Origin: Diphasiastrum complanatum
Lineage: Eukaryota; Streptophyta; Lycopodiopsida; Lycopodiales; Lycopodiaceae
Direction of reading: 5' to 3'
DNA: 64,000 nt
Assembly: GCA_029204225.1 (NCBI GenBank)
Contig: CM055107.1
Coordinates: 7,846,873-7,910,872, forward strand
Position 1 is the first letter of the stretch. Every line of letters starts with the position of its first letter. Position numbers and translations under genes: made by a program. The notes beneath the pieces are model-generated. The model worked only from the letters and a program-made list of their open reading frames with translations. It made no database searches and was not told where the DNA came from. Shown piece after piece: positions 14,040 through 61,500 of the stretch.

Positions 14040-14764
14040 CTTAGACTTATCTTTCTTTTTTCCAAAAGAAGAAGTCTCACCTTGATCTTGCCCTTTAGAC
14101 CACTTGCCTTTGCCTTTGCCCTTGAACTTGCTTTGATGAACATAGCATCCTCTTCATAATGAGATGTCGATGTAGATCCACCTCCTCTTGATTGAAGCCT
14201 ATACTCCTCATTCACCAAGATCTCTTGCAAATCCACAATACTTGGCAAAGTCTTTTGAATAGCAAAACTTTGAACAAGATTAGCATGATCATCCAACAAG
14301 CCATTAAGTATAACTTGAACAAGCTCTACCTCCTTAATGCTTTCATCAATACATGCTAACTCATCATTGAATGCCTTAACCCTCAAAACAAAAGCATGAG
14401 TACTCTCTTCCCTCTTTTGCAAACTTTGAAAGATTTGCCTCCTAAGAGTAAGCACTCTTGATGTAGACTTGGATTCATAAAGCTTTTTCAAAATTTCCCA
14501 AGCCTCCAAAGATGATGTGCACTTACCAACTTCCTTGAGAAGTTCATTGGTAACATTCATCTTAATCATGTGTAGAGCTTTCTTTGCTCTCTTGTCATAC
14601 CTCACTTGATCTTGAGGTGCTTGAGGTCTCTCCTCCACACCTGCAACAATCTCCATCAACTCATTCATCTCCAATAAGGACTCCATCCTCACCTTCCAAG
14701 TAGAATAGTTGATTGAGGTAAGCCTATCATTGCTCTCCAACATAAATCCACCACTTGTAGCCAT
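14036..14764 (-). CDS. Copia-type Gag (UBN2 capsid domain)
   Basis: 242 residues starting MATSGGFMLESNDRLTSINY, followed by STWKVRMESLLEMNELMEIV, the usual N-terminus of plant copia Gag. The UBN2-type capsid region continues with KKALHMIKMNVTNELLKEV, then LRRQIFQSLQKREESTHAFV and FNDELACIDESIKEVELVQV. It would assemble the cytoplasmic virus-like particle. The normal linker to the zinc knuckle (KGKGKWSKGQ) lies in another frame, so there is a frameshift at about 14110-14135 in an AAG/CAA-rich stretch. In the deleted relative at 24.7 kb, MFIKRK and the knuckle are in one frame, which favours a mutation here over a programmed shift, though the latter is not excluded. Confidence 0.88.
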   Translation of the reverse strand: MATSGGFMLESNDRLTSINYSTWKVRMESLLEMNELMEIVAGVEERPQAPQDQVRYDKRAKKALHMIKMNVTNELLKEVGKCTSSLEAWEILKKLYESKSTSRVLTLRRQIFQSLQKREESTHAFVLRVKAFNDELACIDESIKEVELVQVILNGLLDDHANLVQSFAIQKTLPSIVDLQEILVNEEYRLQSRGGGSTSTSHYEEDAMFIKASSRAKAKASGLKGKIKVRLLLLEKRKISLS

Positions 14765-37947: not shown

Positions 37948-38274
37948 AAATGGATGTGGGACGCGTTTTCAAACTCCTGAGTCGGAACTTAGAGCAACGC
38001 ACTCAGGCTGAGGCAAATCATAGAGATATCATTTATTATACAGAGATAGATGGATATAGATCGATTCGATCGATCAGTTAGAGCGAATAAGACCCAGTGA
38101 TTTTGAGTTCTGATAAGGTGAATTTGTGCCTTTTTGCACTATTATCTAATCCCCCCGGGGCGGGGCTTTGTAGGCACGCTGCTCTCTGGATTGTTTGTAT
38201 AATCTTTGTTAGTAATCGAGCAACATGCCCTTTGTTTGTTTGTTTTTTTTAGTCATGACTAGTTATGTCTGAAA

Positions 38275-39812
38275 ATGGGGTACCAATGATCTTATGAATA
38301 CCTATGTTTAATGTATTCCTCTTTTTCTTCAAGTGACATATTGTTGCATATGCTTCTTTGCTAGTACCTGCAAAATCACAGGCATCCTTAACTATAGTCT
38401 TATCTAAAATTTTCTGAATGTCCACCATCAAAGACTCTGCAATTTTGCACTTTACATTGAAACTTCTATTGTTCATCATGATACACTCAGTGGATTTGCC
38501 TATCAATATTGAGCCCAATGACATTCCAAGTGAAGCATTGTCCTTAATATTCTTAGAAGCTACTAATGCAGATTTGCAAAAAATCAGATAGTTAGCATAA
38601 TATCACCGTAGCTGGAATAAATCCATATGTCATTGATAAAGGTACAAAAATCAGAATATGCTTACTTGAATGCACAAATCCTTCTATTAAAATAACCTCC
38701 TTTAAAAAGAGTTTGAATATCCTTACAACTTTGTCGCTCTACGCTTGTTATTCCTAGCTTTCTTCTTAGCCTCTTCCACATCCTTCAGTAATTGTAAGTT
38801 TTCAAATTGAATAGATTGTAAGATTGATTGCATTTGCTCTATTCTGATTTGATATCAAATGTTATCTTCTGTAATGATTCATTATTTCTTTTATGTTCTT
38901 CATTTTCCTCTAAAGTCTTTTGGACAAGACAATCTCTTTTATGACAATAAGAGGATATGTGTACCGAATCACATTCTAAAAAGTGAATTTTTCATGGAAA
39001 ACTGATTTCATAGCTCTGCAATCTCTCACAATATCCTAGTAATCCAGTATGTCCATTGCATATCCATGTAACTAGATGAGTTTTTGAAGAGAATGTGGGA
39101 TGAGTGAAAGTGCTATGACCTTGAGGATACAATCTTCCATCTGTCCACAAATTCAAGTTCTTATTTTCTTCTTTCCTATTCGATCCTCAGCAAATATTGG
39201 AATTCCTTTGCCTCCCCTTCTCTGTAAAGGTGCCAAATCGTAGGGATGTCCAAATGTAGATGATACAATGTCGTCATAAAAAAAACCAAAAAGTAATCAC
39301 ATACATCAGAACAGATTTTTCAAAACAAATCAAACTACTTATTTTTTATTATCCTATATACTTTGTACCATCAATCCGTTGATTTTGCTTGGCTACCTGA
39401 TTCAAATTTGGAGATGGTGCTCATATTTTCATTCCAATGTGAAGATTGCACTCATGTCAACCAGTGGAGGGAATTCATATTCGAATTTAGAAAAAGCTAA
39501 ACTCTTCAATTCTTACATTTTGTTCTTTTTCTTGATTCAAATTTGGGGATGGCGTTCATATTTTAGATCCAATGAGAAGATTTTCCTCATCGTAACCAAT
39601 GGAGGGAATGTATATTCGAATTTAGACAAGTTAGACTATGAACAATTTAGAGTTCTTAACTGTGACTATAGACACTATGGTTAGATCATTGGGAGTTGGG
39701 GAGGGTCAAGAGTGATGGGGGCAAGCAAATAAACAATATGGCTTTTTTTATTTTGATTTTTTCATTATCGTACATGGAAGTCCTTATAGGGTATTTTTGA
39801 TATTTGAAACTG
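38275..39812 (-). pseudogene. Inverted, truncated copy of the gene at 45.1-48.3 kb
   Basis: Read on the reverse strand, this arm matches 45147-46805. Shared text includes the coiled-coil stretch LQLLKDVEEAKKKARNNKRR (38800-38720) and SLGSILIGKSTECIMMNNRS then FNVKCKIAESLMVDIQKILD (38524-38400). A segment of about 65 bp present in the other copy (between YATI and CHLKKK) is missing here. It keeps the intron-like stretch before the GKSTECI exon. The 3' half of the gene is absent. Function not recognised. Confidence 0.7.
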
Positions 39813-44883: not shown

Positions 44884-45146
44884 CAAGCTTCTTAGATTTT
44901 GGTCTTTGGTCACTAGGGACAGTCCTGCTTTGATAATCTGGCTTTTGTTATCATCAGTGTGGCCTTTTCTTTGTAGTCGACATTTTTCTTTCCTTCAAGC
45001 AGTGGCTCAAGTGTCCACGTTTCATTCTGCCTCATCGACTCGATCTCCTCCGACATTGCTTGCTTCTAAAATTCACCTTATGGACTCTGGATAGGTTCTT
45101 GATATGTCGCCGGCTCCTCAGCGTAGCCATTAGAAGAGGTCTCATT

Positions 45147-46805
45147 ATCAAAAAGACCCTTTAAGAAATGCCATGTAGGATAAAGAAAAAAATCAAAATA
45201 AAAAAATAATAATATTGTTTATTTGCTTGCCCCCAACACTCCTGAGGATCTCCAACTCCCAATGATCTAACTATAGTGTCTATTGTCACAGTTAAGAACT
45301 CTAAACTGTTCATAGTCTAACTTGTCTAAATTCAAAAATATTTTCCCTCCATTGGTTACGAAGAGGGCAATCTTCTCACTGGATCTAGAATATGGCCGCC
45401 ATCCCCAAATTCAAATTAGGAAAAAAAGTAAAATGTATAAATATGCATTCCCTCCAGTAGAATAAAAATTTGAGTGCCTTCTCCAAATATGAATGCCATC
45501 TCCACATTGGAATGAAAATTTGAGCGCCATCTCCAAATTTGAATCAGACAGAAAAGCAAAATCAATGGATTGATGGTACAGAGTATATAATATAATAAAA
45601 GATAAGTACTTTGTTTTGTTTTAAAAAATTTGTTCTTAGTACTTTGATGCGTTTAATTACTTTCTTGTTTTTTCTGATGACAACATTGTATTATCTACAT
45701 TTGGATATCCCTACTGATTTGGCACCTTTACAGAGAAGGGGAGGCAAAGGAATTCCAATCTTTGCTGAGGATCGAATAGGGAAGAGGAGGCAAAGGAATT
45801 CAAATATCTGCTAAAGATCATTCTCGTTATAGGGTAGAAGGAAAGAACAACTTGGATTTGTGGACAAATGGAACATTATATTCTCAAGATCCCAGCACTC
45901 TGACTCATCCCACATTCTCGTCAATAACTAATCTAGTTATATGGATATGCAATGGGCATACTGGATTACTAGGATACTGTGAGAGATTGAAGAATCATGG
46001 AAATTAGTTCTATATGATGAAAATTCACATTTTAGAATGTAAGTTGATACGGATATCCTCTTATTGTCAGAATAGAGATTGTCTTCTCCAAAAGACCTTA
46101 GAGGAAAACGAACAACTTAAAAGAAATAATGAATAATTACACCAATATAACAATCGATATCAAATACAAACTAAAGCAAATGCAATCAATCTTACAATCT
46201 ATTCGAATTGAAAAGTTACAATTACTGAAGGATGTGGAATTCTAAGAAGAAGGCTAGGAATAAGAAGCGAAAGCAACAAAGTTGCAAGGATATTTAAACT
46301 CTTTCAAAAAGGATGTTATCGAAATAGAAGGATTCATGCATTCAAGTAAGCATGTTCTGATTTTTGTAACTTTATCAATGACATATGGATTTATTTCAGC
46401 TACGGTGATATTTTGCCAACTATCTGTTTTTTTGCAGATCTGCATTAGTAGCTCCTCGGAATATTAAGGACAATGCTTCACTTGGAATATCGTTGGGCTC
46501 AATATTGACAGGCAAATCCACTGAGTGTATCATTATGAACAATAGGAGTTCCAATGTAAAATGCAAATTAACAGAGTCTTTGATGGTGGACAATCAAAAA
46601 AATTTAGATAAGACTATAGTTCAAGGTGCTTCTGATTTTGTAGGTATTAGCAGGGAAGCATATGCAACAATATTTAAACTTATTAGAGAAGCTTTTAAGT
46701 AAGTTCAAATTAGAAAAGTACTAATCCCAAGGTCATATCACTTGAAGAAAGAGAAGGATACATTAAACATAGGTATGCATAAGATTATCGGTAACCCATT
46801 TCATA
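45147..46805 (+). repeat. Right arm of a ~1.6 kb inverted duplication
   Basis: Inverted and collinear with 38275-39812, including non-coding parts such as TTATTTGCTTGCCCCCA and AACTCCCAATGATCTAAC. The spacer between the arms is 5.3 kb. Confidence 0.88.
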
Positions 46806-48290
46806 TTGAGGAGGTGTATGAAACTGATGGAAGTTCAATATCTTGTAGTTCATCAAACAACTTATTTGTTGATATAAATTACTTGCTAAGATACATCGTC
46901 ACATTCTATGATATAACCTTTGAAAAGGTGAATGGCAAAATAATCATGGTACTTAAGCTAAATGAGTTAGAAATTGTAAAAGGGTAGAAGATGGAGAGTG
47001 TTAGTATAGCTCTCATGAATGGTGCACTATCACAAACAGTGGAACAAGGAGATTTCAGATTTAGTGTCCAGTCCGAGAATGATATATGGTGGTTGGCAGC
47101 GTTTCAAATAATTTTTCTCTTTATTACATTATTTTCAATGGATAATATAAATTCATATTAAGCTAAGTTTGAATTATTGTTTGGATAGGTATTGAAGGAG
47201 GATCATGATATATTATCATGGATATTCTCTAGGACATCTTACCCTAGGATCATCAAGGACCATATGGATGGAGGATTTCTCAATGTTCCACAAGTTGGAG
47301 ACTTCAATGTTGAATGGCACTTAGCAAGTTATTTGAAAACATTGAAATGCATGTATAATGTCTCTCACGATGCTACATCCAAACACCCTTGTTTATACTA
47401 CATGAAAATGGCAAAAGATGTTACTAGGAGTACATGAATTACTAGAGAATATGCAGATCCAAACTGGAAGCATGTGCTGCCCATTCCCTTGAAAATTGTG
47501 CATGTTTGCACTCTTCATGTAGAAGTTAGATTAATAGAAAAGCTCATTTATCTTCATATAGTTTTTGCTTGAAATACTAAGCCAACATCATCCTCGAAGG
47601 AAGCTATCTCGAGATTAGAAGATGTTTTATCGAAAGCAAGACTTCATAAGGGACGTGTCAAAATACAGAAAGATGAAAAGCTTTCAGAAAAGACAAGAAA
47701 TATGCTTACTAAACCAAGCATAGGAGGAGCAAAAGCACGTCAATTCCTATCAAAACATACTGGTAAGGCTTCAAAATTTAACACTCAGTCTGGATGGATA
47801 TCATTGCTGCCACTCAAGGTTTCGAGAAGAGCGGCAAAACTAGATTACTAAAAGTTGATGTATGGAGAAAGCTTGATAGTATGATTGAAATTTTAAGAAA
47901 AGATAAATTTTCTGATATTGACAAGAAAGCTGTACAAAATACTTGTGTCGAGTTTGTTGGTACAGTATCAAAAGCATGGGGAGAAGATCACATCACTCAT
48001 TACATGGTTAGTATAAATGCTTCGAGATGATTTTAATACTCCTTATATATTTTGATCCAAGCATAAGACTGACATTATGATTTTGACATGTGCAACACAT
48101 AATAAGAGATCATACAACATTTTTTGCAAACACATGGAAGCCTGAGTGTCTAGTCATCACAAGGGATGGAGAAGTCACATTGGCAAGCACGGGCAGCATT
48201 TCATCAACATGGAGGAACCAATGAAAAATGAAACTACATTTATCAATTATTTCAATGGTTCTACCGTAGAGTTCAGATTTGACAAATAAC
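45640..48290 (+). pseudogene. Decayed multi-exon gene, possibly transposase-derived
   Basis: Exon-like parts: RGGKGIPIFAEDRIGKRR (~45.73 kb); a coiled-coil part NSFKKDVIEIEGFMHSS (~46.3 kb); a donor at 46345/46346 and acceptor at 46437/46438; then SALVAPRNIKDNASLGISLG, GKSTECIIMNNRSSNVKCKL, and further blocks to 46987. After another intron-like gap come DHDILSWIFSRTSYPRIIKD and GDFNVEWHLASYLKTLKCMY with SKHPCLYYM (47192-47437), then VLPIPLKIVHVCTLHVEVRL and MDIIAATQGFEKSGKTRLLK (47794-48030), and finally RDHTTFFANTWKPECLVITR (~48.1 kb). Single stops and shifts occur in several exons, so this copy is probably dead. The order W-H-L..D/Y-L-K, a Cys cluster, then C-T-L-H recalls uncharacterised transposase-like proteins, but I cannot name the family. 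Confidence 0.6.
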
Positions 48291-48552
48291 AAAATCCATA
48301 GAATATATCAAGTTTAGAAAAGCATGCAAGTTCACGCATGAAGAGAAAAATTAGAATATTGCTGAATAACAGATTACATTCTTCTTGAAACTGTGCCTTT
48401 TCTACAAATGATTTTAATATAACAAAGACATTCAGTAATCATTGTCATCAAATTATGACAAGTTCAGAAAAGCAAGAGAGAAGAGCATCATAATCAAATG
48501 ATATGTACTCAATGTAAATGTATTAATTGTATCATAACATAAAACAAAGTGT

Positions 48553-48723
48553 TCACTCTTCATCATCAATTTTTGTATCTCCTTCTATGCCGATGAAAGA
48601 ATCCCGAACCACTTCAGTATCAAGGGTGTCAATAAGGAAGTGACTAATATCTTTAAAGGATGATGGAACTGAGGATGAGGCCATTTGAGGATCAGAAGCG
48701 ATAGCTTTTTCATCATCCGAGAT
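48553..48723 (-). CDS. Terminal exon of an unrecognised reverse-strand gene
   Basis: After an acceptor (CTAGTTTAG on the reverse strand) the frame reads ISDDEKAIASDPQMASSSVP, SSFKDISHFLIDTLDTEVVR, DSFIGIEGDTKIDDEE and a TGA. It is 56 residues, acidic at the end, and has no stop. An upstream open stretch of about 51 codons (48908-48754) reads MFKQRLDRMFTRLFEQFRYT then MMCPICKRKCRFLKY, with a C-x2-C pair that could be half of a zinc site. A possible first exon starts at ATG 49111 (MVLSSGSSRESTLSVFLTDL). I could not join these exons in one frame with confidence. The gene would lie head to head with the H3-like gene. Function unknown. Confidence 0.45.
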   Translation of the reverse strand: MSDDEKAIASDPQMASSSVPSSFKDISHFLIDTLDTEVVRDSFIGIEGDTKIDDEE

Positions 48724-49258
48724 CTAAACTAGCAGGAAAAGTATAAAACCAGTCTAGTATTTAAGAAAACGACATTTTCTTTTACAGATAGGACACATCA
48801 TAGTGTATCTAAATTGTTCAAACAATCTAGTAAACATTCTGTCTAGTCTTTGCTTGAACATCGGGAAGAAATGAACAAGACCAGTAAAATGCATGAATGA
48901 GAGAGGACCTATGGAGATAACATGTATACTAGCTATATCCCTGAATCTAACATAGTATTTGTAAATACTGCAGAACTAGGTTGCACAGTCTTGCAAACAT
49001 GTAGATATGGGCGAAATAGTGTGTGAAAGTAGTCTAAGTTTTTAGTCATTCCAAGATCAGTAAGAAATACACTTAGGGTGCTCTCACGGCTAGATCCCGA
49101 GGACAACACCATGGCTCTCAGGTAGATATCGCTTCTGTGCGTGGGGTAAGCAAACAGGAAAAAAGAGATTGTAAGAACGCACACAGGAGTGATATGTACG
49201 AAAACTGTAGTTGGGATATCGCATTAGTGTGTAGACAAAAGACTAGCAACAATAGATA

Positions 49259-49268
49259 CTATAAATAG
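49259..49268 (-). promoter_or_regulatory. TATA box of the reverse-strand gene
   Basis: CTATTTATAG on the reverse strand, ~150 bp upstream of the candidate ATG at 49111. Together with the ACACGTGT repeats to its right it looks like a normal plant promoter. Confidence 0.45.
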
Positions 49269-49389
49269 TGCGCAGAAAAGCAATTTGCCATGAAAATTGA
49301 GAAAAAAAAGTAAAAAATTAATCGGGTTGCATGTCTTTTATAGGCAATTTTCACACGTGTGGGTCAATGGTCAACCAAACACATGTTGC

Positions 49390-49543
49390 CTCCTAATGGT
49401 TCGTACAACTACACACGTGTGATCTGACTACTGGACACGTGTCACGAGTTCATCAAAAAATGTGACACGTGTCGCCTCCCTAATGGTCCATACGACTACA
49501 CACGTGTGATATGACTACAGGGCATGTGTCACGAGGTCATTGG
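49390..49543. repeat. ACACGTGT-rich tandem repeats, units 1 and 2
   Basis: Unit 1 starts GCCTCCTAATGGTTCGTACA (49390) and unit 2 GCCTCCCTAATGGTCCATAC (49475), an 85-bp period. Each contains ACACACGTGTGAT, a (G)ACACGTGTCACGA-type site and further ACGTG cores. ACGTG is the core of plant G-box/ABRE elements bound by bZIP and bHLH factors. A third unit lies at 53926, beyond the copia insertion. Confidence 0.85.
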
Positions 49544-50152
49544 TGTCAGAAATCGAGAGGTTAGTGAGCAGAATCTTGAGCAGGTTCGTATAGGATCGGA
49601 AACGCCACAAACAACAATAGAGTATTCAAATTGAATGATTTAGACAAATGCACAATGAAATGATACTGTAGTAGGACTAAAAATTTGCACTCTGATTAAT
49701 ATCAAACAGTGAGTACATGCTTGAAGTGATAACTTTAGCTTACAGTCATTGAGAGTGATAACTTTGGTTGTAGAAACTCGAATAATCAGAAGAAGTAATC
49801 TGATGAGATTCTAGGATTGATATCCTACAAAATATCTACAACTACCTTTTGTTGCAGTTATTACAATTGCCTCATTATAGTTAATGCATGTACAAAGTGG
49901 ACAGACTATCAACGCGAAGTCGTTGGGTCGGCGACAGTATCAAAATTTACAAGTATCAAAAAATGTACAAAGATTTGAAAATACTGACTCGAAAAATATA
50001 GAATTTTTCGAGTCGATCCGATATAAAAAATTCCTAGAAAAGATTTGATTCTGAATTTTTCAATCCTCTGTTCATAATTCGAGCTTTCTGTTTTTGGTTT
50101 TTCATGATGCTCATTATTGAATGGATTTGAGACTGAGCATCGAAATCCAACA
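49544..50152 (-). repeat. 3' LTR of the integrase-less copia
   Basis: It starts TGTCAGAAATCGAGAGG and ends CGAAATCCAACA. Confidence 0.9.
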
Positions 50153-50165
50153 CTCTTCCTTAATT
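50153..50165 (-). other. Polypurine tract
   Basis: On the reverse strand AATTAAGGAAGAG leads straight into the LTR start TGTTGG. Confidence 0.75.
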
Positions 50166-50271
50166 TGGATCTTGAAAACTTTTGATTTTTAGATTCAACA
50201 TGTCGTTGAATCTGAGGTGGTGCTCCTTTGATAGAGCCTTTGTGAAGTAATCTCCTGCCATTGATTCTGTC

Positions 50272-50366
50272 CTACAGTAGACTAAGGATATATCTTTGCT
50301 TTGTACTTTCTCTCTCAAATAGTGATATCTGATTTTGATATGCTTGCTTCGAGAATGAAATCTTGG

Positions 50367-50464
<98 letters not shown>

Positions 50465-51625
50465 ATGGTGCTTAAGTTGTCACAAAAGATGGTTGTTGGA
50501 TGTGATTGTGCAAGGTTGATTTCTGCTAGTAGGTGCCTCAACCAAATTGTTTCCTTTGTAACATTTGTGTCAGCAATGTACTCTAATTCAGTTGATGATA
50601 ATGCTACTGAGGTCTGCTTTCGGCTGTTCTAGGAGATCGGTTCTTGATTGTATAGGAATACCAATTCATAAGTAGACCTTCTAGAATCGATATCTCTTGC
50701 CCAATCTGCATCTGTGTATCCTTCAAGTACGTTGGTAGGTTGGTTGTCTCCATAACGTATGCTAAGATGTTTGGTTGCCTGAATGTACTTCATGACCTTT
50801 GTGAGCACTTTCCAATGAGTTAGACCTGGATTCGATAGAAACTGGCTGAGTGAACTGATTGAATATGCAATGTCACGGGTCGAGTGCAGATCATTGCATA
50901 CATTAGTGAGCCGATGATGGAGTGAAATAGATATTGTTTCATCTCCTCCTAATCTGCCTCAATTTGAGGATATTGTTCCTTTGACAACTTCAATCCAAAG
51001 TCAAGTGAAAAGAGACTTGGTTTGTAGTTGGCCATTCCATACTTTTTCAGCACATTTGTGAGATATCGCTGTTGGTTGATGAAAATCGGACGACTAGATC
51101 AAATTCAGAAAATTTTGATTCCGAGACAGTAGTGGGCTTTTGGACCCATATCAGTCATTTTGTACTCCTTGGCCAGCATGCATTTCGTTTCCTTCATCAG
51201 ATCCAGATCGTTACTAAATAATAGTGTATCATCTACATAGAGAGTGACGATGATGAAGAAATTTGATACAGAGTTGAAGTAGACATTCGAGTGTGCTGAG
51301 TTTGGAATGAAACCATTCTAATAAGGAATGCATTTATTTTTTGGAACTAGGCCCTAAGTGACTATTTCAGTCCATAGAGTGCCTTGTAAATTTTGCACAC
51401 AAGGTGTTGTTTTCCTCTCAACTCATATTCTTCTGGTTGTGACATAAATATTTCTTCTTCAATGGTCCCATTGAGCAAAGCGATCTGGACATCCATTTGA
51501 TGGACTTCGAGATCTACTGCAGCTGCAAAGGAGAGTAGCAAATAGAACAAAGCATGCTTGAGTATTGGGTTGAAGGTTTCAGAATAATCCAGATCTAGAA
51601 TCTGGGAATAGCCTTTGGCTGCCAA
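50272..51625 (-). pseudogene. Reverse transcriptase and RNase H with microsatellite expansion
   Basis: RT starts MAAKGYSQILDLDYSETFNP (51625) and continues EVHQMDVQIALLNGTIEEEI and KIYKALYGLK, then loses the frame. RNase H text appears between 50900 and 50272: YSISSLSQFLSNPGLTHWK, EGYTDADWARDIDSRRSTYE, SVALSSTELEYIADTNVTKE, TIWLRHLLAEINLAQSHPTT and IFCDNLSTIALS. The last phrase is the DNxSxI catalytic block, and there the DNA turns into (CT)n giving a run of Leu-Ser before the frame resumes. Several stops are present. No activity is expected. Confidence 0.85.
50370..50462. repeat. (GA)n microsatellite inside the RNase H sequence
   Basis: 93 bp of GA repeats. It begins at the Leu-Ser codons of the RNase H block and is thus an expansion within former coding DNA. 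Confidence 0.95.
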
Positions 51626-51939
51626 AGCATATTAGATGATTCAGAAGTTGAGGTATGACGAGCTTGACTGTTGGAAGAATAACAATGGCTGAGTTTGTAG
51701 AGATCTCTACTTCTTCTCCCAAAAGCTAGAATTTTCCAAGTTTTGTTAAGGATAGTGCAACCGATTGTATCGAATTTAACCCTTCGATCTGAATCAATGA
51801 TTCTGCTAACTGAGAGTAGATTCTTGGTCAGATTTGAGATGTGGAGAACATTGGGAAAGAAATGAGTAGGAATTTTACCCTTAAAACACATATTTGATAC
51901 AAGATTCAAATTTCTTAGTTCTTTCAACATGCCAATCAA
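51595..51939 (-). pseudogene. GAG-pre-integrase region fused to RT by a deletion
   Basis: The frame reads HISNLTKNLLSVSRIIDSDR, then VKFDTIGCTILNKTWKILAF, typical of the end of protease and the pre-integrase domain. It ends SNMLWQPKAIPRF. In complete copia elements LW is followed by HxRxGH, the start of the integrase zinc domain. Here the RT motif AKGYSQ follows within a few bases in another frame, so about 1.3 kb of integrase has been lost at this point. The ORF end and the RT start overlap by 31 bp. Confidence 0.8.
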
Positions 51940-52218
51940 ATCTCAAAAAAGCTCTGCCCTGCGGCCTTATGATCTTTCCAGATTCAATTAAGAATTTGAG
52001 AGTGGCAAAAAGTAGTTATTAGTTTCTTGTTGACAATAACCTTGACTTCACCTTTCTGAAATTTGACTCTGACTATTTCTTTACCTTGAATTGAATGTGA
52101 TGAGTTGTCTCCAAGTTGCACAACTCGAGTGGGTGAAAGATTTATAATCTTTGAACCAGACTTGATGGTGAGTCATGTGTTGAGTTGCTCCAGAATCGAG
52201 ATACCAGGAATCGATATC

Positions 52219-53153
52219 CTATTGTTTTCCGACCTTGGTCATAAAGGCTGCTTCATCTTCCTCATGTTGTTGTATCAAAAAACTAGTTGAGGCTGAATTT
52301 GCTTGTTGTTGGAAGTGCTTCTTCTTCTCATTCTTGAATTTTAAAGTTCTGTAGTCCTTGATCTCAAGTCCAATTCTCTTGCAATATCTGCAGAAAAGCT
52401 TCTGCTTTGGTTGGAAAGATGAAGAGTTCGAATTCGATCCTGAGTCTAAATTCAACCCAGAGCTAAAATTTGAGACTTAGTCAAAATTTGATCATGACTG
52501 CATATTGCTCTCTTTTTTTTGGATCTAAACTTCTGATTTTTGGAATACAGAGCATGAGGATCCGACTGTGTACCTAAGGAGGTTGCAGATCTTCTGGCCT
52601 CCTCTTGTTGAAGTAATAAAATCACTCTTGAAAGGGTGATCTTCTCTTGGATCAAAATTTCTAGGACCCAGTTCTCATAGGCCTCATGAAGACTCGATAA
52701 TAGAGTTATAACAACATCAGTATCTTCAATGACTGAGCCAGTTGCAGTCATTTGCTCCATAAAATTTTGGAAAGTGTTGATGTGGATCGAAACATTTGTT
52801 GCTTCAGACATTCTCAAGGTGAAGAATTTTTTCCTCAAATGCAGTTTGGAGGAGATGTCCTTGATATCATAGAGTGTTGCTAGGATGTCCCATGCATGCT
52901 TAGTAGTCTTAACAACTCGTATGTGACTGATTTGATTGTCTTTGATGTTGAGGTGATCATGACAAAAGCCTTGTCATCTTTCAGTCTCCATTTGGTGATA
53001 GTGGCTACATGACCTCCAAGTTTAACTTATGTGCCATCAACAATGTCCCACAGTTCCTTGGCTAGTAGTATGACCTTCATTTTGAATTTTCAAAGATGGT
53101 AGTTTCTTCTATCGAGTCTATCAATTAGAGAAGAATTAAAAGACGAATCCATT
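52219..53153 (-). pseudogene. Copia Gag with degraded zinc knuckle
   Basis: The start MDSSFNSSLIDRLDRRNYHL (53153) is followed by a stop where W-K-F-K-M-K is expected, then KMKVILLAKELWDIVDGT. The UBN2 part 52838-52452 reads MRKKFFTLRMSEATNVSIHI, FQNFMEQMTATGSVIEDTDV and VITLLSSLHEAYENWVLEIL. The next frame (52455-52219) holds KLFCRYCKRIGLEIKDYRTL, a knuckle whose His and last Cys are lost. The protease follows as closed text near 52.1 kb. Confidence 0.85.
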
Positions 53154-53277
53154 CTGGTTGAGCAAGATCATCGGTAGAAACAATTCGAGATACTGTTGGC
53201 TATGCGCTTGCTAGGACGCGTCTTGATATAAACAAGACTTGATAATCCGCAGTAAAATACAAATTACTGCACTGTCC

Positions 53278-53289
53278 GCTCTGATACCA
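53278..53289 (-). other. Primer-binding site
   Basis: On the reverse strand TGGTATCAGAGC follows the LTR end CGACA directly. Confidence 0.95.
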
Positions 53290-53899
53290 TGTCGAAAATC
53301 AAGAGGTTAGTCAGCGGAAGCTCGAATAGGTTCATGTAGGATCGGAAACACCACAATAAATAGTAGAATATTCAAATTGAATGATTCGGACAAATGCACA
53401 ATGAAGCTATATAGTAGTAGGACCAAAAATTTGCACTCTGATTAATATCAAATAGTGAGTACAATGCTTGAAGCGATAACTGCAGCTTACAATCACTGAG
53501 AGTGATAACTCTGGCTGCAAAAACTCAAATAATCAAAAGAAGTTTCTAATGAAGATTCTAGGATTGACATCCTACAAAATATCTACAACTACCTTTTGTT
53601 GCAGGTATTACAACCGCCTCATTATAGTAAATGCTTGTACAAAGTGGGCGGATTGTCAATGCAAAGTCGTTGGGTCGGATTTTAGATCATCGACAATATC
53701 AAAATTTACAAGTATCAAAAAATGCACAAAGACTCAAAAAATACTGACTCAAAAAATATAAACTTTTTGAATCGATCTGATATAGAAGAATTCTCAAAAA
53801 AATTTGATCCTAAATTTTTCGATCCTCTACTCAATGAGCCCTAGTTTTTCAAGATGCCCATTAAGAAATGGATTTGAGACTGAGCATCAAATTCCAACA
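53290..53899 (-). repeat. 5' LTR of the integrase-less copia
   Basis: It starts TGTCGAAAATCAAGAGG and ends ATTCCAACA, and is collinear with 49544-50152. Confidence 0.9.
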
Positions 53900-53904
53900 A
53901 TTGG

Positions 53905-54100
53905 TAGGAAACATGCCATGTGACATCTCCCTATTGCACCATACGATAGCACATGTGTGACCTGACATCCGAACACATGTCACGCAATCATTGCATGGAT
54001 AAGGCGACACATGGCAGAATCTCATAAACTGATAGTTTGCACGTGCGACAAGACGTGTGTTCGCACGTGCGAACCGTTTGATAAAAGTCCTCGACCCCGA
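53905..54100. promoter_or_regulatory. Third ACGTG-type repeat and upstream region of the H3-like gene
   Basis: TCTCCCTATTGCACCATACG (53926) continues the pattern of the units at 49390 and 49475. It is followed by CACATGTGTGACC, ACACATGTCACGC, GACACATGGC and, near 54040-54080, GCACGTGCGA twice. A TATA-like TGATAAAAG lies at ~54080. It reads as the proximal promoter of the forward gene. Confidence 0.5.
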
Positions 54101-54396
54101 GACACTTTTCTTCAATTTTTTTTTGCTCCATCTTTCCGCATATTGCTCTTGTGCGACGGTAGGTTATGTGCACTTCTATCTATTATAATTCATATGCACA
54201 AATTTGATATACTGTACCTCCGCATATCGCTATGGTAGGACCCTCTTCTATTTGTGTTTTACTTGTTATACTCGTTGCGCATAGAAGCGATATAACTTAC
54301 TGTCCATACATATTGCTTCTCTACAACCATCATTACACCCTTTTTCATCATATTTCATTTCTCATGCACAAGTCCAATAGCCCTCTGACTACCAAT

Positions 54397-55458
54397 ATGG
54401 ATAGGAGAAAGCAGACAAAGAGAGATTTTTTCTCTACTGATACTTCCTCAGAGCCTATTGTTGCCATTAATCCACCCAGACAAACTAGAAGGCGCAACTG
54501 TAGTAAGTGGCTATATGATATTCGCAAATACCAGAAATCCACCAAACTCCTAATTTCCAAAGCACCATTTTACCATGTTATCCGCCAGATTACCAAGGAA
54601 GATCTCGGTAGTATAGTTAGGTTTACACCCGGGGCACTTCAGTGCCTTCAAAAGGCTGCTAAGGATTATCATAGCCTCTTTTCTGAGGACTCATTTTTGC
54701 TCGTCATACATGCCAAGCGAGTTATGATAATGCCTAAAGATTTTCAGCTACTATACAAGATGAGGGATAGATACTCAAAATTACATATGGGTGAGCCAGC
54801 TGCTCCCAGACCCGCCGATCCATTAGATAGGACATACCTCCCTACCAAGAGGCCCATGAAGCAGCCAACCCCCAAGAGAACCCCGAAGAAAGTAAGGAGG
54901 GTCGTTAATCCAGAGTCTCCTTTTGTAGATAATATAGATACTGCTACATTTGATTTGGTTGTAAACATAGCTACAACCATTTTGGATAATTCAGTTATTT
55001 TTGTAGATTCTTCTCATCCACCTCCTCCTCTTCCTTCTCATCCACCTCCTCCTCATGCAATTTTTTATACATATATAGATTTTGATGATTATCTTAAATT
55101 TGAGAGTGACATGTATGATGTTGTAGATAGAATTGGAGTTCCATTTTGTTTTAGATTAGAGGAACTTGATTTCAGTATAAATTATAGGATTATTGATTGT
55201 TTGGATCTAGAAAATAAATGGGCTTTTATCAGTGATGCTGTGATAGAGTCTGGGGACACACTCTTGCAATTTGACATTGCAAGAGATTCATCGAGTGAAA
55301 TTTTGGTGCTCAACAATTCTTTCCTTCAGGCAATTAAGGAGAAGAATGACAATTTGTCACAATGTCTATTTAGTGGATATACACCAGTTACAAAATATCT
55401 GTTTAGTGGATGCACAGCAGTTACAAAATATCTGCTGGTGTCTTATCACTGCAAGTAA
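54397..55458 (+). CDS. Divergent histone H3 variant with long C-terminal extension
   Basis: 353 residues, uninterrupted. I chose ATG 54397 (context ACCAATATGG) over the in-frame ATG 54232, because the protein then begins DRRKQTKR, keeping R2, K4, Q5, T6 and R8 of H3 after Met loss. The 55 extra residues look like untranslated leader. Residues 38-125 form the H3 fold: IRKYQKSTKLLISKAPF (alpha-N), VIRQITKEDLGSIVRF (alpha-1/loop 1), ALQCLQKAAKDYHSLFSEDS (alpha-2), then IHAKRVMIMPKDFQL (loop 2/alpha-3). Loop 1 is one residue longer than in canonical H3, a hallmark of centromeric H3 (CENH3). H3 K9, K27 and K36 have no counterpart. Residues 130-353 are extra: a basic stretch KRPMKQPTPKRTPKKVRR (151-168), Pro-rich 208-219, an acidic folded-looking part, and a duplicated 12-residue unit (FSGYTPVTKYL / FSGCTAVTKYL). 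It should bind H4 in a nucleosome; the extension's role is unknown. Intronless up to here. Confidence 0.72.
   Translation: MDRRKQTKRDFFSTDTSSEPIVAINPPRQTRRRNCSKWLYDIRKYQKSTKLLISKAPFYHVIRQITKEDLGSIVRFTPGALQCLQKAAKDYHSLFSEDSFLLVIHAKRVMIMPKDFQLLYKMRDRYSKLHMGEPAAPRPADPLDRTYLPTKRPMKQPTPKRTPKKVRRVVNPESPFVDNIDTATFDLVVNIATTILDNSVIFVDSSHPPPPLPSHPPPPHAIFYTYIDFDDYLKFESDMYDVVDRIGVPFCFRLEELDFSINYRIIDCLDLENKWAFISDAVIESGDTLLQFDIARDSSSEILVLNNSFLQAIKEKNDNLSQCLFSGYTPVTKYLFSGCTAVTKYLLVSYHCK
55269..55458 (+). other. 3' end of the H3-like frame with a 36-bp tandem duplication
   Basis: The coding text LFSGYTPVTKYL is repeated as LFSGCTAVTKYL at about 55366-55437, from a 36-bp tandem duplication. A donor GCAA|GTAAGT lies at 55454/55455, overlapping the unspliced stop TAA (55456-55458). 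Confidence 0.7.
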
Positions 55459-55561
55459 GTCAATTTAAATGTTTTTTGTTATTTATAGCTTTATTATTGG
55501 CATTATCATTTGAGGTATTTCTCAGAATTGTAGCTAATGGACTCTCTATTTTATTTTGCAG

Positions 55562-55913
55562 TGAGCACTAGAGTTTAAACTTGATCTCTATCAGGAGATC
55601 TATAGAGAATGTTATTAAACTTTTTTGTGTAAATATTGACTCGGTCCTACCGATTGTATGTAAATATATTCCATCAGAGACTCCCATGCAATTGAATGAG
55701 AGATCATTAGTCTGGAGGTAAATTATGTCCTTCTCATCAACATTTTGAAATCAACAATCTATTGTGTTCTTATCATTGTGTGGTTTTCCATTATTGATGT
55801 CTTGTGTGCTGAAATTTTTGTAGTCACCCTAGCAAAATGATTCATTCAGTTGTGGGTGGTACACTTTGTACAATGCAAAGTTGCTTTTTGAGCAAGATGT
55901 TGATATTTCAAAG
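55562..55913 (+). other. Candidate downstream exons of the H3-like gene
   Basis: Acceptor TTTTGCAG ends at 55561 and donor GAG|GTAAAT is at 55717/55718. A second acceptor TTTTGTAG ends at 55823, with donor AAG|GTAATT at 55913/55914. If exon 1 is spliced at 55454 the frame continues as N-E-H and then a TAG (55569-55571). Beyond that single stop it stays open through both exons (RRSIENVIKLFCVNIDSVLP, IPSETPMQLNERSLVW, SHPSKMIHSVVGGTLCTMQS) with matching splice phase. So these are either real coding exons now cut off by one nonsense codon, or 3' untranslated exons. The copia fragment at ~55955 ends the series. Confidence 0.4.
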
Positions 55914-55954
55914 GTAATTTATTTTGTTTATTATTGGTTTTGGAATTGTGATTC

Positions 55955-56440
55955 ATTTTTCTATTCGAAATGCTTCTTTTGTAGAAAGAAGGGGCATTAT
56001 GCGTCTGAATGCTACAAGAGAATAAGAGCACAAGTGGAGAAGGACAAACAAGGAAACCTTGCAAAGGAGGAGGAGGAGGATGAAGTAGATGTATTCTTGA
56101 TGGCATCTACATCCTCACCAACAAGCAATAGCAATTCAAGAGACAATTGGTGGATCGACAATGGGGCTAGCTCCCACATGTCTTGTGAAAGGACTTTTTC
56201 TCAACTTTACACTCATTCAATGATGCTAAAAAGTTTGTCTTTACTGCAAATGATGAAGAGTGTAGGATAGATGGTGTTGGCACCATCTCTTTGTGTCTAG
56301 AATCCTCAAAATGCATGGATCTAGAAAATGTCCTTTATGTACCATCAATAACCAAGAATATGCTTAGTGTTGGTCTACTCTTAGAAAGTGGTTTGGATGT
56401 CCACTTTAAGCATGGGGTTTGCTTCATCGGATTCTGATGT
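55955..56440 (+). pseudogene. Copia gag knuckle and protease fragment
   Basis: KCFFCRKKGHYASECYKRIR is a CCHC knuckle; NWWIDNGASSHMSCERTFSQ is the protease motif with D-N-G in place of D-S-G. After a frameshift at ~56260 the text continues DGVGTISLCLESSKCMDLEN, VLYVPSITKNMLSVGLLLES and VHFKHGVCF. The sequence stops resembling copia at ~56440. It is in the same orientation as the integrase fragment at 60.35 kb and could be the same former element. Confidence 0.85.
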
Positions 56441-56864
56441 GCACTTTAAAAATTGTTTGCCGCCAGAATTTTTCGATCACCGGACTTCTAGTTTCGAATT
56501 TTTTGCCTATCAGATTCCGATGCGTTGAATTGTGACGGATTATAAAATTTCCAAAAATCTGTCGGACGTCCACGTCGGAATCTGCATGATATGTTATTAT
56601 GATTGAAAAGTTTTGAAAAGAGTTTTGAGGTACATTCAAGCCACAAAACATCACGCGTTTTGTTATGGTGAAAATTCAGTGGATGCATAAAGTTTGGAAG
56701 CTTGTTCATAGTCAAATTGGAATGAAGATGTGAATACTAGAAAATTCACTTCTTGCTACTTGTGCTTTATTTTAGGAGGGCCCATTTCATGGAACATCAA
56801 ACATCTAACCTTAGTTTATCATCAAACCATAACAAGCTATTAGTACTAAATACCTTAGCAAACA

Positions 56865-57092
<228 letters not shown>

Positions 57093-57099
57093 CTTCCTT

Positions 57100-58220
57100 T
57101 TCTCAATTTCTCTCTCTTTATCTTTCTCTCAATGTCAATCAAAACTCTCACTTTCACTCCCACTCTTCTTTTCTTCTTCACTCTTGCTCTTCTTATCTTC
57201 TTTTCAAAACAAGGATGACTCAGGCCAACAATTCTCTACTCCAAAATTGTGCAGCCTTTCTTTCTAGCAAATTTGTTTTTGCCAAAACTTCATGGGTGTG
57301 GCATAGCCACGCATGGTAGTGCGATGCCCAAGAATGAAATTTCCATCACATTTGGTAAACAAAGAGAAAATCCATTATGTAGTATTGCCACACACGACAA
57401 CATTTGAAAGTGCGTGTGGTTGTGCCAAGTTAAAAAAAGAACTCTATTGTTTCTTAGAATTCCAACGTGTTGCTTTTCGACAACTAGTTTGGGTGGTTGC
57501 ATCGTGGGTAGATGTGCCACGCACCTGATTTTTGAAAATTCTAGTAGCTAGAAAGGCTTCGACGCTTCGGTGTGGCAGTGTCCCGCCATAGTTACCACGC
57601 ACATAGCCACAAGAATAGCCACGCTCATTGTTAGAATTTCTTTGGCTCTTTCACACTTCTCATACAAGCTTGGATAGCCCTTTTGAGAACATTTGGATGT
57701 ATGGTGAGGCCTACACTTGCAAACTTGGACTTGAGGCCTATCATGAAGGAGGTGGCATTAGCATAATATTTCACATATATTGCTTTCAGATATCAATACA
57801 AATTCAATCAATAAAAAATCTCTTCAACATATCAGTTAGATTCAGTTCAATTGTTCATTGCACAATGTCTCCTATAGTTCCAATCGATGCTAATACCTAC
57901 AACTTCAATATGCAATAGTTGGGGCACATACATTAGGGCTATCAATATTGAATAAAATTTGGTGACACCAATGGATTGAAAGCATAACTTGCATTGTAAG
58001 GAGAGTACCCCAATGGATACAAATTTGAATATGCATAAAAAGAATGGTATTATTCTATTCGATCGAGAGGAGAAAACCACCCCACCCCACCCCCCTCTGG
58101 CCGCTTTTATTGTTCCAAAACGAATGCATCTTGATGTAGGAATATCTCAATGTGTGAATGTCTTTGGCCCAAATGCTTAGTTCATGCAAGAATAGGAGCA
58201 ACACTTGATGAAGCTTGGTG
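57100..58220. other. Non-coding stretch with recurrent GCCACGC words
   Basis: Words such as ATAGCCACGC, TGCCACGCA, TACCACGCACATAGCCACA and GCCACACACGA recur between 57300 and 57630 in irregular spacing. No gene was recognised. Confidence 0.5.
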
Positions 58221-58223
58221 GAT

Positions 58224-60205
58224 TTAATCTAGATCCCAATGTGGTATCGCATTATTTACAAAATCAAAGGCCTCAAATCTATTTCTCGTTTAATTAATCC
58301 TTTACTTCTTGGTAATTTCTCGAATATAAGACATCAGACTGATTTATATGATTCTTTCCAGCATTAAGTTATTCTTCTAAAAGACTGTTATGTCATATAA
58401 TTTACTACTTATGTGAATAGACTTGGAATTCAGATAAATTCTATGGTTTAAGTGTTTCAATTATTAAACCTAGAATATCTCTTTTTGCATAAATGGTTTT
58501 TGATGGAATGGTAGTTCTGTCACTTGGGTTGAAAATAATTGAAGAGGAAGTCATTATTACTGACTTTTCTTGGATTTGGGTAGTTTCATATATCATCTTT
58601 CCAGTTAACTTTTATTGAAATTGATAATTCCTTTGAAAGGAGGGGTGAAGTGGTGGAATAAAATTCTATTTGGGAATCTCTGGGTTGCATAATGTTTGGA
58701 AGAGAACCAGATGTAGTATAGAAATGAGATTTGATTTGAAAGTAATTTCGGATACATTCAGAGTAAGATACCTAATTGAAACTTTTTTAATAAGAGAAAT
58801 TCTCTAGGGATTGTGTAGACAATCTGGAACTAGAACAAGTTTGATATTTGAATCATTATCTATAAGTAGTACTGTAAAAGGTCAAAGGTTACTAATTCCA
58901 TTTTGATTGAAATAGAAGTAAGTTTGATTAGAATTTAAGTCTGAGAGTTTTGTATTTGATCAACCTAATCTTAGTTTTAATACTAGAATCAGTGAGGGGT
59001 TGATTGAGTGGAAGAAATTATGCTATTAGAGAAAATTGGATTGGAAAACTGTTGAGAATGAATTTTATTCGTCTCAGAGATTTATGGATATGTTATTTAC
59101 TAATGAGAAATGGAAAATATTTTGTAGCTGAGTTACAAGATCTCAGTGAGATATGTGAGTAACATACGTGGGTTATGGAGGAATCTACTAGATAAAAATG
59201 TGTTTATGTACTGGGTCATAGTGAGATTATTCACATATGTGCACGATTAATCTTGTATGAATCTACTGTGTATTCTTGGTTACTAGAGCTATTTGGTGCA
59301 CTTAACCTAGTCGATGAACATGAACATATGATCAAGTATTGTTTTGACAGATACTTGCAGAGTTAACGGATCTTTCTATGGAAGATTTATGAGTTGACTA
59401 ATAGATGATTTGGATAAGGATCTAAATGGGGTGTTATGCTAGTATAATTAAGATCTGCACCTAGACATTTGAGATTTCTAAATCATTGGCAATTAACTTG
59501 AGTAGTTGATTACTCCAAGATGAAGTTAATTGGTAAAACGATTAGTGTGATGGGAAATTCACCAGGAACTGATGGTTTGTTAATTATATTGTTTGTAAGA
59601 TGCATGATTAGTGAATCATTTGGTTTCATCAGTTAAATTTGTATGCATTGGATATACAATATTCTTGGAATAGAAAATTCCTCAGTTAAGGAATAGACTC
59701 AGTTCTTTAGTGATTGTATCCCAGAGAGCTCAATTGGATAGCAAATCATAATGAATCCAAAAATAATATCTGAATTGATATTCAGTAGGACTTTGGGTAT
59801 CTAGATTTGATTCTAGATTGTAATCTAGAGCTTTTTTTGCAGTTGAAGATGATTGTCATTTTAGTATGCGTTCAGTCTTTAATTACCCGTGATCAATAAA
59901 ACTTAAAATCTTGCACTTCAGTTAAAAAATCATGTTTGAAGAATATTTCTAAATCCAGTATTTTCTTAGTGGAAAGGTATTCTGTAAATGATTATGGCTT
60001 TGGATTCCAGAAAATTATGATTGACAAATCATACGAATCTAAATATTTATGATTAAGGGATCACAAATAGATACTTAAATATTGTCAGAGGATTATAAGG
60101 AATTATAATGATTCTTAAGTGTGACAATTAAGTCTTGGTCTATTAATTGAGTAAGAATTCAGATCAGTATTTTGAACCTCTTTACTCCAATATTATTGAG
60201 AACCT
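58224..60205 (+). repeat. Anonymous ~1.95 kb dispersed repeat, copy B
   Basis: Same orientation as and collinear with 3143-5095, from TTTAATCTAGATCCCAATGT to a CCTCTTTACTCCAATATTATTGAGA-like end. It carries one insertion of about 100 bp relative to copy A near 59730-59880. It separates the two copia fragments at 56 and 60.3 kb. Confidence 0.8.
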
Positions 60206-60339
60206 ATGGATTTCACAGATATTCTCACAAGATAAGTATTTTACTTGTGGAGAATTTAATTTATCTAGTAAATGCTATTCTACAGGCGGTTTGGCTCCAT
60301 AGTCTCTGTTATTGTGTTCTCCTATCCTCATCTTAGGGG

Positions 60340-60609
60340 CAATCCTTGAGGGTCTTTATATGTAGCCTCTCAAAGGCTCGCAAGCAACCATTTGCTAACT
60401 CTTCTATTAGATCTTCTAAGTCATTAGATCTCATTCATAGTGATGTGCACTCTTTTTCACAAGTATCTAATGGAGGTGCATTAATGTATGAATCTTTTAT
60501 TGATAATTACTCTAGATACATTTGGATTGAGCTTTTGGATTCCAAAAGTAAGATGTTTGAGTTTTTCAATAAGATCAATAAGCAAGTAGTTCGATCCATA
60601 AACAACTAG
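60340..60609 (+). pseudogene. Copia integrase fragment
   Basis: CSLSKARKQPFANSSIRSSK is the end of the integrase zinc domain and linker. SLDLIHSDVHSFSQVSNGGA then MYESFIDNYSRYIWIELLDS holds the first catalytic Asp (HSDV) and the second (FIDNYSR) of the DDE core, and the fragment ends KSKMFEFFNKINKQVVRS before a stop. The third catalytic residue is absent, so it is inactive. Confidence 0.85.
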
Positions 60610-60619
60610 ATCCATAAGT

Positions 60620-61500
60620 AAGTAGCCTTGCTGAGATGAAAATACTTTTTGATTTCAATATTAGAAAAATCCTGCCAAGTTGTGGTGATTTTTAGACTTA
60701 TGTTTCTAGCATAAGTAATATTGATAATCATAGAAAGTGCACATTGTATGATCATGTTTGTAGTGATCATCATGAGACATGGAGGTCTCAGATTTCCATC
60801 AAGGAGGAGCATGCACATCAAGAAAGCGAATGCCTCAAGGTCAAGCATCTACATGAAATTTGGAAGGAGTCAATCATCATCATGCTTTTATCAAGTTAGT
60901 TTTGAGGAGTGTTAAAATTGGCAAAAGCACTATGACTGTGACATATATATCTAGCACAAATAGGATAAGTTATCGATGAGATATAGCTCGTCTTTGTAGG
61001 ATATCAATAGGACCATCATCCTAAGTGTCAAACAAAGTGATGGACAAAAGAGTGCACATTGGAGAGAGTGGAATGCTGCATAAGTCCAAGATCTTCTCGG
61101 AAATAGTACCCTTGAAATCCAAGATCACATTAGAGGAGTTTTGAGTTCCAAAAAGACCCTTTAAGAATTCGTGCAAGATGTAGTTTATATTATTAAAATA
61201 TTATAGCACTAATACTTTTGACTTGCCATAACTTTTTAATTGTAGCTCAGAAGTATATCATCTAACATATCATTGGAAAGCTCTTGTTGAGCGCTTTCCA
61301 ATGCACTAGACTCTGCTAAATTTGGACTTGCCACAAAAACGTTATGCCATTTTTAGTGTGGAATCAAAATGTGGACTCAAAAAGTTACGTTATGTAGATT
61401 TCAAATTTGAGTGTTTTGATTGGTCCATGTGTAAGAAAAAATTGAGAAAAATTAAAAAAAGAATCCTTACAAAGTTTGGATTTAGAACTCCTCTAATGTC
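60620..61500. other. Non-coding stretch with a hairpin
   Basis: No gene was recognised. At 61271-61303 CATTGGAAAGC and GCTTTCCAATG form a perfect 11-bp stem with an 11-bp loop. The phrase AAAAAGACCCTTTAAGAA at ~61156 also occurs at ~45150, at the start of the inverted duplication. Confidence 0.5.

Follow-up and report, generated by a model that had tools for sequence, protein, structure and literature searches.

A histone H3-like open reading frame in a 64,000-nucleotide stretch of the Diphasiastrum complanatum genome (hereafter, the window) does not encode an H3 variant of the host; it is the first exon of a longer gene. The best explanation, to which we assign a probability of roughly 0.8, is that this exon belongs to a gene fusing an H3-type histone fold to a Ulp1-type protease (the H3–Ulp1 gene), carried here by a decayed copy of a high-copy DNA transposon with terminal inverted repeats (TIRs). 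We hold the anatomy itself, an H3–Ulp1 gene within a four-gene TIR transposon, with high confidence. The features of the window are collected in Table 1.

Table 1. Features of the window, with positions counted from its first nucleotide.
Feature	Position	Strand	Remarks
Inverted partial second copy: element left end and transposase	38273–39804	-	
Left TIR of the decayed window copy	45128–45162	+	CATTAGAAGAGGTCTCATTATC...
Remains of putative DDE-type transposase	46245–48027	+	Several stops; tblastn, up to 76% identity
Remains of ORFa	48589–49112	-	Divergent from the H3 gene; 53–64% identity
One surviving copy of repeated motif	54139–54156	+	CATATCGCACTTGTGCGC; upstream of the H3 gene; 3 mismatches, 0.01 expected
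H3 tail, exon 1	54397–54498	+	MDRRKQTKRD...; K4 kept, K9 replaced by D
H3-type histone fold, exon 1	54499–54786	+	Loop 1 one residue longer than in H3
Linker, exon 1	54787–55038	+	Basic and proline-rich; weakly constrained (dN/dS 0.56)
Ulp1-type protease domain, first half, exon 1	55039–55454	+	
Intron 1	55455–55561	+	AA/GTAAGT ... TTTTGCAG/; inferred, matching sites in relatives
Protease exon 2	55562–55717	+	EH-stop, against DHW in many relatives; frame shifted at exon end
Intron 2	55718–55832	+	Inferred
Protease exon 3	55833–55913	+	QNDSFSCGW; 5 residues shorter than in most relatives
Copia-like gag-protease fragment adjoining the gene	55968–56430	+	Zinc knuckle and Pol_BBD, weak; right edge approximate, by eye
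Short element with both TIRs	61128–61498		371 bp; MITE-like derivative of the family

An H3-type fold and a tail that keeps K4

The first-pass annotation had described an open frame from 54397 with an H3 fold that differs at about half of the fold positions, one extra loop 1 residue as in CENH3, and K4-Q5-T6 at the spacing of ordinary H3, and each of these points held. The ATG at 54397 opens a 353-codon frame on the plus strand, residues 17–122 match the Pfam Histone model (E 7.9e-21), and the best PDB matches are H3 proteins (E 4e-18). Over 93 positions the fold is 46% identical to a host H3 reference read from eight host loci (L001–L008). Loop 1 in the family of the window frame, which we call family A, is one residue longer than in H3, and K4, Q5 and T6 are seen at their usual places in the window tail. 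Single-sequence AlphaFold2 returned unusable models (pLDDT 33 for the 353-residue frame and 41 for the fold alone), which are too poor to support or oppose the fold.

Residues were counted in 25 family A copies, five near-identical copies having been dropped. K4 is kept in all 24 copies in which it is covered; at K9, 23 of 24 have D or E and one (L020) has K. Sixteen copies have no tail lysine besides K4; the window copy also has K7. Within the fold, H113, K115, D123, Y54 and F84 of H3 are kept in 25 of 25 copies, R116 in 24, and L126 mostly; R49, R63 and K79 have been replaced, and the residues at R69 and R72 are variable.

Dispersed relatives of the frame

A search of the genome with the frame gave at least 115 scored matches among 9,103 first-look candidates; the frame is not single-copy but belongs to a dispersed family. 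The 115 comprise the window itself, one copy of 98% identity on the same contig, and others that are 63–73% identical. Nearly all scored matches cover residues 1 to about 336, and many contain one or more stops. In family A the extension behind the fold is as old as the fold. Plasmids yielded no relative.

The copy on the same contig (L010) lies about 0.78 Mb away, and positions 52899–56428 of the window match G000:C16:8682939-8686468 at 98.6% identity over 3.5 kb. Because this identity takes in the left flank, a segmental duplication is likelier than separate transposition.

A predicted protease split across three exons

On domain and motif evidence, the extension makes up the first half of a protease of the Ulp1 type (C48), predicted to continue in two further exons. 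By itself it gave only weak, below-cut-off Pfam and PDB matches and no NCBIfam match, as befits half a domain. Two family A copies spliced on paper scored 30.3 and 27.7 bits against PF02902 (Peptidase_C48), above the cut-off of 20.7. Exon 2 of the relatives starts with DHW, and the third exon carries QNDSFSCGW, which holds the Gln and Cys of the C48 active site; by eye, no catalytic Asp of C48 peptidases was found at the usual spacing after the His in families A and B. The His-Trp motif is kept in 17 of the 28 loci covering it, with a stop at the Trp in 9 and the His lost in 2 (L012 and L029 were left out of this count and near-identical copies included). The catalytic Cys is kept in 22 of 27 loci covering its position. 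One copy on C1, with both ends present, is without protease exons 2 and 3.

We infer that exon 1 ends at 55454, before AA/GTAAGT, which would make the last codon and stop of the open frame intronic. The AA/GTAAGT site is present in the window and in the C1 copy, and in other copies it is marked by their HTK-stop. A 33-bp tandem duplication at 55361–55434 falls in the last residues of the frame. In the window copy, a TAG at 55569–55571 replaces the Trp of His-Trp, while the Cys is kept; with this stop and the exon 2 frameshift, the window H3–Ulp1 gene is dead. Copia-like sequence follows it from about 55968. The earlier claims that an intact frame adds an extension, and that this extension is a C-terminal one with a folded-looking acidic region, thus stand in part: the frame is open and shared by relatives, but the gene is broken, and the supposed acidic region corresponds to a Ulp1-type protease, of which it forms the N-terminal half.

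Copies lie in a TIR DNA transposon

Conservation between copies extends far past the open frame. Comparison of four regions of about 19.6 kb, each holding one copy, revealed a perfect 35-bp inverted repeat at C7:71809545 and 71818225, and two further copies had both ends, at C1:20721697-20729787 and C7:37133404-37142130. The carrier elements are accordingly 8.1–8.7 kb long with 35-bp TIRs (8,091 to 8,727 bp in the three two-ended copies) and have the ends CATTAGAGGAGTTCTC...GAGAACTCCTCTAATG. They carry, in this order, a putative DDE transposase (+), ORFa (-), the H3 gene (+) and ORFb (-); TIRs and partner genes are present in the copies that were read at length, and both ends were read in a copy on C20. 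Searches with 300 bp of either end gave 1,833 first-look candidates for the left end, the best 40 scoring at 97–100% identity, and 1,760 for the right end, the best 40 scoring at 87–100%. Of 11 stretches at a guessed distance, one had the TIR, and it was of the short-derivative type; of two further stretches, the one on C20 contained the end.

Insertion is precise. The flanks of two full-size insertions join to uninterrupted related Copia sequence, one such empty site lying within the window at 14606–14714. Because the flanks join without a gap, there is no target duplication (0 bp) at these two insertions; at one short derivative the duplication is 1 bp, by eye. Inverted repeats at both ends and precise insertion are thus present as in TIR DNA transposons, and the target-site duplication of that class was absent twice and 1 bp long once. 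Four two-ended insertions (two on C7, one on C1 and one on C20) have identical bases flanking both sides.

The putative transposase is a long plus-strand frame with KLDES, GDLK and CxxC, and its placement in the DDE class rests on these motifs as read by eye. No Pfam family scored over cut-off for the family A or family B protein, and the family A protein had no PDB match; neither a Mutator transposase match nor a 9-bp target-site duplication was found. Such a transposase, together with a duplication of 0–1 bp between identical bases, possibly marks an undescribed superfamily. A Helitron with its left end at the TATCGCACTTGTGCG repeat was also considered and was rejected when this repeat proved to be an internal motif in longer stretches.

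The element copy in the window

Upstream of the dead gene, positions 45128–48383 of the window match the leftmost 3.2 kb of the C1 copy at 84% identity. ORFb and the right end of this large copy were not found within the window; the TIR at 61498 belongs to the 371-bp derivative, and 45128–61498 was for that reason rejected as the extent of the whole window copy. A relative of this short derivative, about 0.37 kb long, lies inside a C7 copy (L057) at element positions 1412–1788, in the transposase region, with a 1-bp duplication.

Related families and the H3 tree

A related element adjoining a copy on C6 carries an H3 gene of its own and defines family B, with at least 150 scored matches at 78–100% identity. 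Transposase, ORFa and H3 gene follow the family A order. Between the two families, identity is 60% for the transposase, 46% for the histone folds (L017 versus L083), 28% for the protease (E 6e-26) and 27% for ORFa (E 1e-12). The single family B tail that was read, MARTKETARLT, keeps K4 and has L at K9, and the gene is frame-shifted there; loop 1 is longer still than in family A. By eye, HW and Q..C motifs stand behind splice sites at corresponding places, and the one family B protease model scored below the PF02902 cut-off. Dozens of the family B matches listed are clustered at G000:C3:18.5–21.4 Mb and 29.98–30.15 Mb, where open-frame lengths shared by many of them hint at local or tandem amplification.

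A third H3-like repeat family, family C, has at least 150 scored copies at 77–100% identity, many of them stop-free (L082, L087, L088, G000:C17:8897258 and others). The one copy that was read on has a long proline-rich N-tail and ends right after alpha-3, and by eye no protease was recognised in the 1.5 kb behind it. Among the three families, host H3 is most similar to family C (53%).

In a tree that included two CENH3 sequences, a branch separates families A and B from host H3, CENH3 and family C, with a support of 90/81 that is below the tool's star. AU tests with these sequences rejected a clade of family A with CENH3 (p 0.013), of family A with host H3 (p 0.009) and of family B with CENH3 (p 0.015), and did not reject a clade of A, B and CENH3 together (p 0.064).

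Selection and decay

Pooled dN/dS, from 83 deep pairs between nine old groups (14 of 30 loci, hand-chosen), was 0.15 (0.09–0.23) for the fold, 0.28 (0.20–0.41) for the protease half of exon 1, 0.56 (0.39–0.81) for the linker and 0.39 (0.21–0.73) for the tail. Low values for fold and protease half against that of the linker indicate that spreading lineages kept the protein under selection. At the tail value, the loss of K9 and K27 might reflect no more than loosely constrained drift in a short tail. Five recent pairs scattered from 0.29 to 3.6, so constraint on recent copies is weak; taken with the deep pairs, this indicates that constraint is lost once a copy has inserted, the protein being maintained in the spreading lineages. 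The comparison between segments is weakened by unequal dS, which in the same pairs (window 54397–55404 and relatives) was 1.0 for the fold and 0.42–0.52 for tail, linker and protease segments. Whether recombination between subfamilies accounts for a fold dS about twice that of the other parts is a question that these values raise. The first-pass annotation had taken a lack of transcripts together with dN/dS near 1 in relatives as the sign of a decaying copy; the window copy is indeed decaying, but dN/dS in the old lineages is far below 1.

In eight recent copies, C>T changes numbered 33 of 288 site-observations in CG, 75 of 800 in CHG and 36 of 2272 in CHH contexts, and CAG to TAG accounts for 18 of the 38 stops in 26 copies. 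The recent copies decay as if methylated: changes like these are what methylation at CG and CHG sites would be expected to leave behind.

A repeated motif between two gene starts

Copies of a short motif lie in the intergenic region between two gene starts, with six in L057 against 0 expected. An exact 22-mer of the motif occurs 52 times genome-wide and its reversed control 0 times; five of these fall no more than 300 bp upstream of an H3 match listed from the frame search, and the association of the motif with the H3 gene covers these 5 of 52. Families A and B share, at 93% identity, one 70-bp piece that contains the motif CATATCGCACTTGTGCG. It stands upstream of the H3 gene in family A and inside the H3 gene, between the histone and protease parts, in family B.

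Proposed function and alternatives

We tentatively propose, at somewhat less than even odds, that the H3–Ulp1 protein may act as an anti-silencing factor of its element. This is the simplest account of a selected H3 fold that has lost K9 and K27 and kept K4, of a tethered protease, of a motif beside the gene and of an element that looks methylated. The H3-like protein would pair with H4 into nucleosomes or half-nucleosomes, an assembly suggested by the retention of H113, D123 and, mostly, R116 and L126. It would probably do so on element DNA, perhaps guided by the intergenic repeated motif. Its tail could take an activating mark at K4 and would be closed to silencing methylation at K9 or K27, and the tethered SUMO-type protease would strip SUMO from nearby silencing factors. 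CHG methylation accompanies H3K9me2 in plants; the H3K9me2–CHG methylation loop would be broken and the transposase gene expressed. In its strongest form, about which we are more doubtful, the proposal is that the transposon makes a silencing-proof nucleosome, in which an H3 markable at K4 and unmarkable at K9 and K27 is laid, with a SUMO protease, on the element's own DNA. If this were true, the element would rewrite its own chromatin instead of evading a silencing pathway protein by protein. Of the roles floated in the first-pass annotation, the best fit is a histone fold that tethers a second activity to chromatin, fold and protease being fused, but the gene is a transposon's. On the suggested sex- or germline-specific variant of the host, the one result that bears is that this is not a host gene.

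The main rival to anti-silencing, which we consider rather unlikely, is that the H3 domain serves transposition by docking the machinery on nucleosomes or steering insertion, with the protease processing or desumoylating transposition or repair factors. Purifying selection fits both roles alike, and the motif repeats between gene starts could be promoter or transposase sites. Ulp1 domains also occur in other DNA transposons, where one report suggests that they act in transposition (PMC2836005). The kept K4 and the acidic K9 position, however, are left unexplained by such a role, and two Copia insertions are too few to show or exclude insertion targeting. A passenger origin, in which host H3 and Ulp1 fragments were captured once in Pack-type fashion and copied unused, would suit the weak constraint in recent pairs, and plant transposons are reported to capture host sequence, Ulp1 included (PMC13317346). 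We nevertheless regard it as very improbable given a fold dN/dS of 0.15 across deep lineages and the same fusion, with His-Trp and Gln/Cys, in family B at only 28% protease identity.

Still less credible is an origin in the host, by pseudogene or retrocopy spread of an H3 variant or a duplicated CENH3. Splice sites are retained in the copies, which have three further genes within their inverted repeats, and family A was rejected as a partner of CENH3 alone and of host H3 alone, against which stand the longer loop 1, the RW of family B at the H3 F84 site (as in the two CENH3 sequences) and the clade of A, B and CENH3 that survived the AU test. The suggestion of a second centromeric H3 made in the first-pass annotation is not supported either, the gene being dispersed at high copy in TIR elements and its clade with CENH3 rejected for family A. 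We give the least weight of all to a remnant of an endogenous large DNA virus carrying a histone. Virus-encoded histones exist, but a scan of 2.9 million viral contigs, able to detect close relatives only, yielded no relative, the gene has inferred introns and sits in a TIR element with empty sites, and no capsid or packaging genes were recognised among the element frames, of which transposase, ORFa and ORFb were scanned against Pfam.

Relation to known systems

The proposed anti-silencing role invites comparison with the VANC proteins of VANDAL transposons, Mutator-like elements of Arabidopsis; VANC proteins are not known to have a histone fold. VANC anti-silencing proteins bind arrayed motifs in the non-coding DNA of their elements and cause methylation loss (PMC5735166), and some VANDAL elements, the KIU forms, carry Ulp1 (PMC13317346). 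The present element resembles them as a multi-gene plant DNA transposon with an accessory gene beside the transposase, a Ulp1 domain and signs of host methylation (PMC5735166, PMC13317346), and also in having short motif repeats, mostly in one orientation, in its non-coding DNA (PMC5735166). It differs from VANDAL elements in its clear 35-bp TIRs, a target-site duplication of at most 1 bp in three cases and a transposase unmatched by Pfam, and the source text available mentions no histone fold for VANC (PMC5735166, PMC13317346). Ginger1 likewise is a DNA transposon with TIRs and a Ulp1 (PF02902) protease domain, but in Ginger1 the protease is fused to an integrase-like transposase (PMC2836005), whereas in the present element its partner is a histone fold and the fusion gene is distinct from the transposase gene.

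With CENH3/CENP-A the protein shares an H3 fold, a longer loop 1, a divergent tail and fast evolution; unlike them, it is encoded by a transposon gene with at least 100 scored copies, keeps K4-Q5-T6, has a C-terminal protease and, in family A, does not group with CENH3. As with virus-encoded histones, a core histone variant is encoded by the selfish element itself, but here that variant is protease-fused and borne by a TIR transposon, and no virus relative was found. A search of the open literature found no transposon-borne histones, which is weak evidence of their absence.

Transposons of plants and animals are known to carry Ulp1 domains, for which there has been no explanation, and fusion of one to a selected histone fold hints directly at a protease acting on chromatin. 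With this family one can test whether selfish DNA is able to evade H3K9 methylation by providing a histone variant of its own. The family is also a source of natural H3 variants that may have evolved against silencing.

Histone searches in this genome

In genomes like this one, transposon copies can swamp a search for histones or CENH3. A Histone-model search of the 1.745-Gb assembly listed 153 matches, 13 of them canonical H3 (164–165 bits) and the remaining ones listed at 83–110 bits over many contigs. Host CENH3 was not found among 150 scored of 5,526 candidates, and those listed resemble canonical H3 and the transposon copies. The canonical host H3 loci (L001–L008) have A31, Y41, S87 and L90, which we take to be a mix of angiosperm H3.1 and H3.3 signs.
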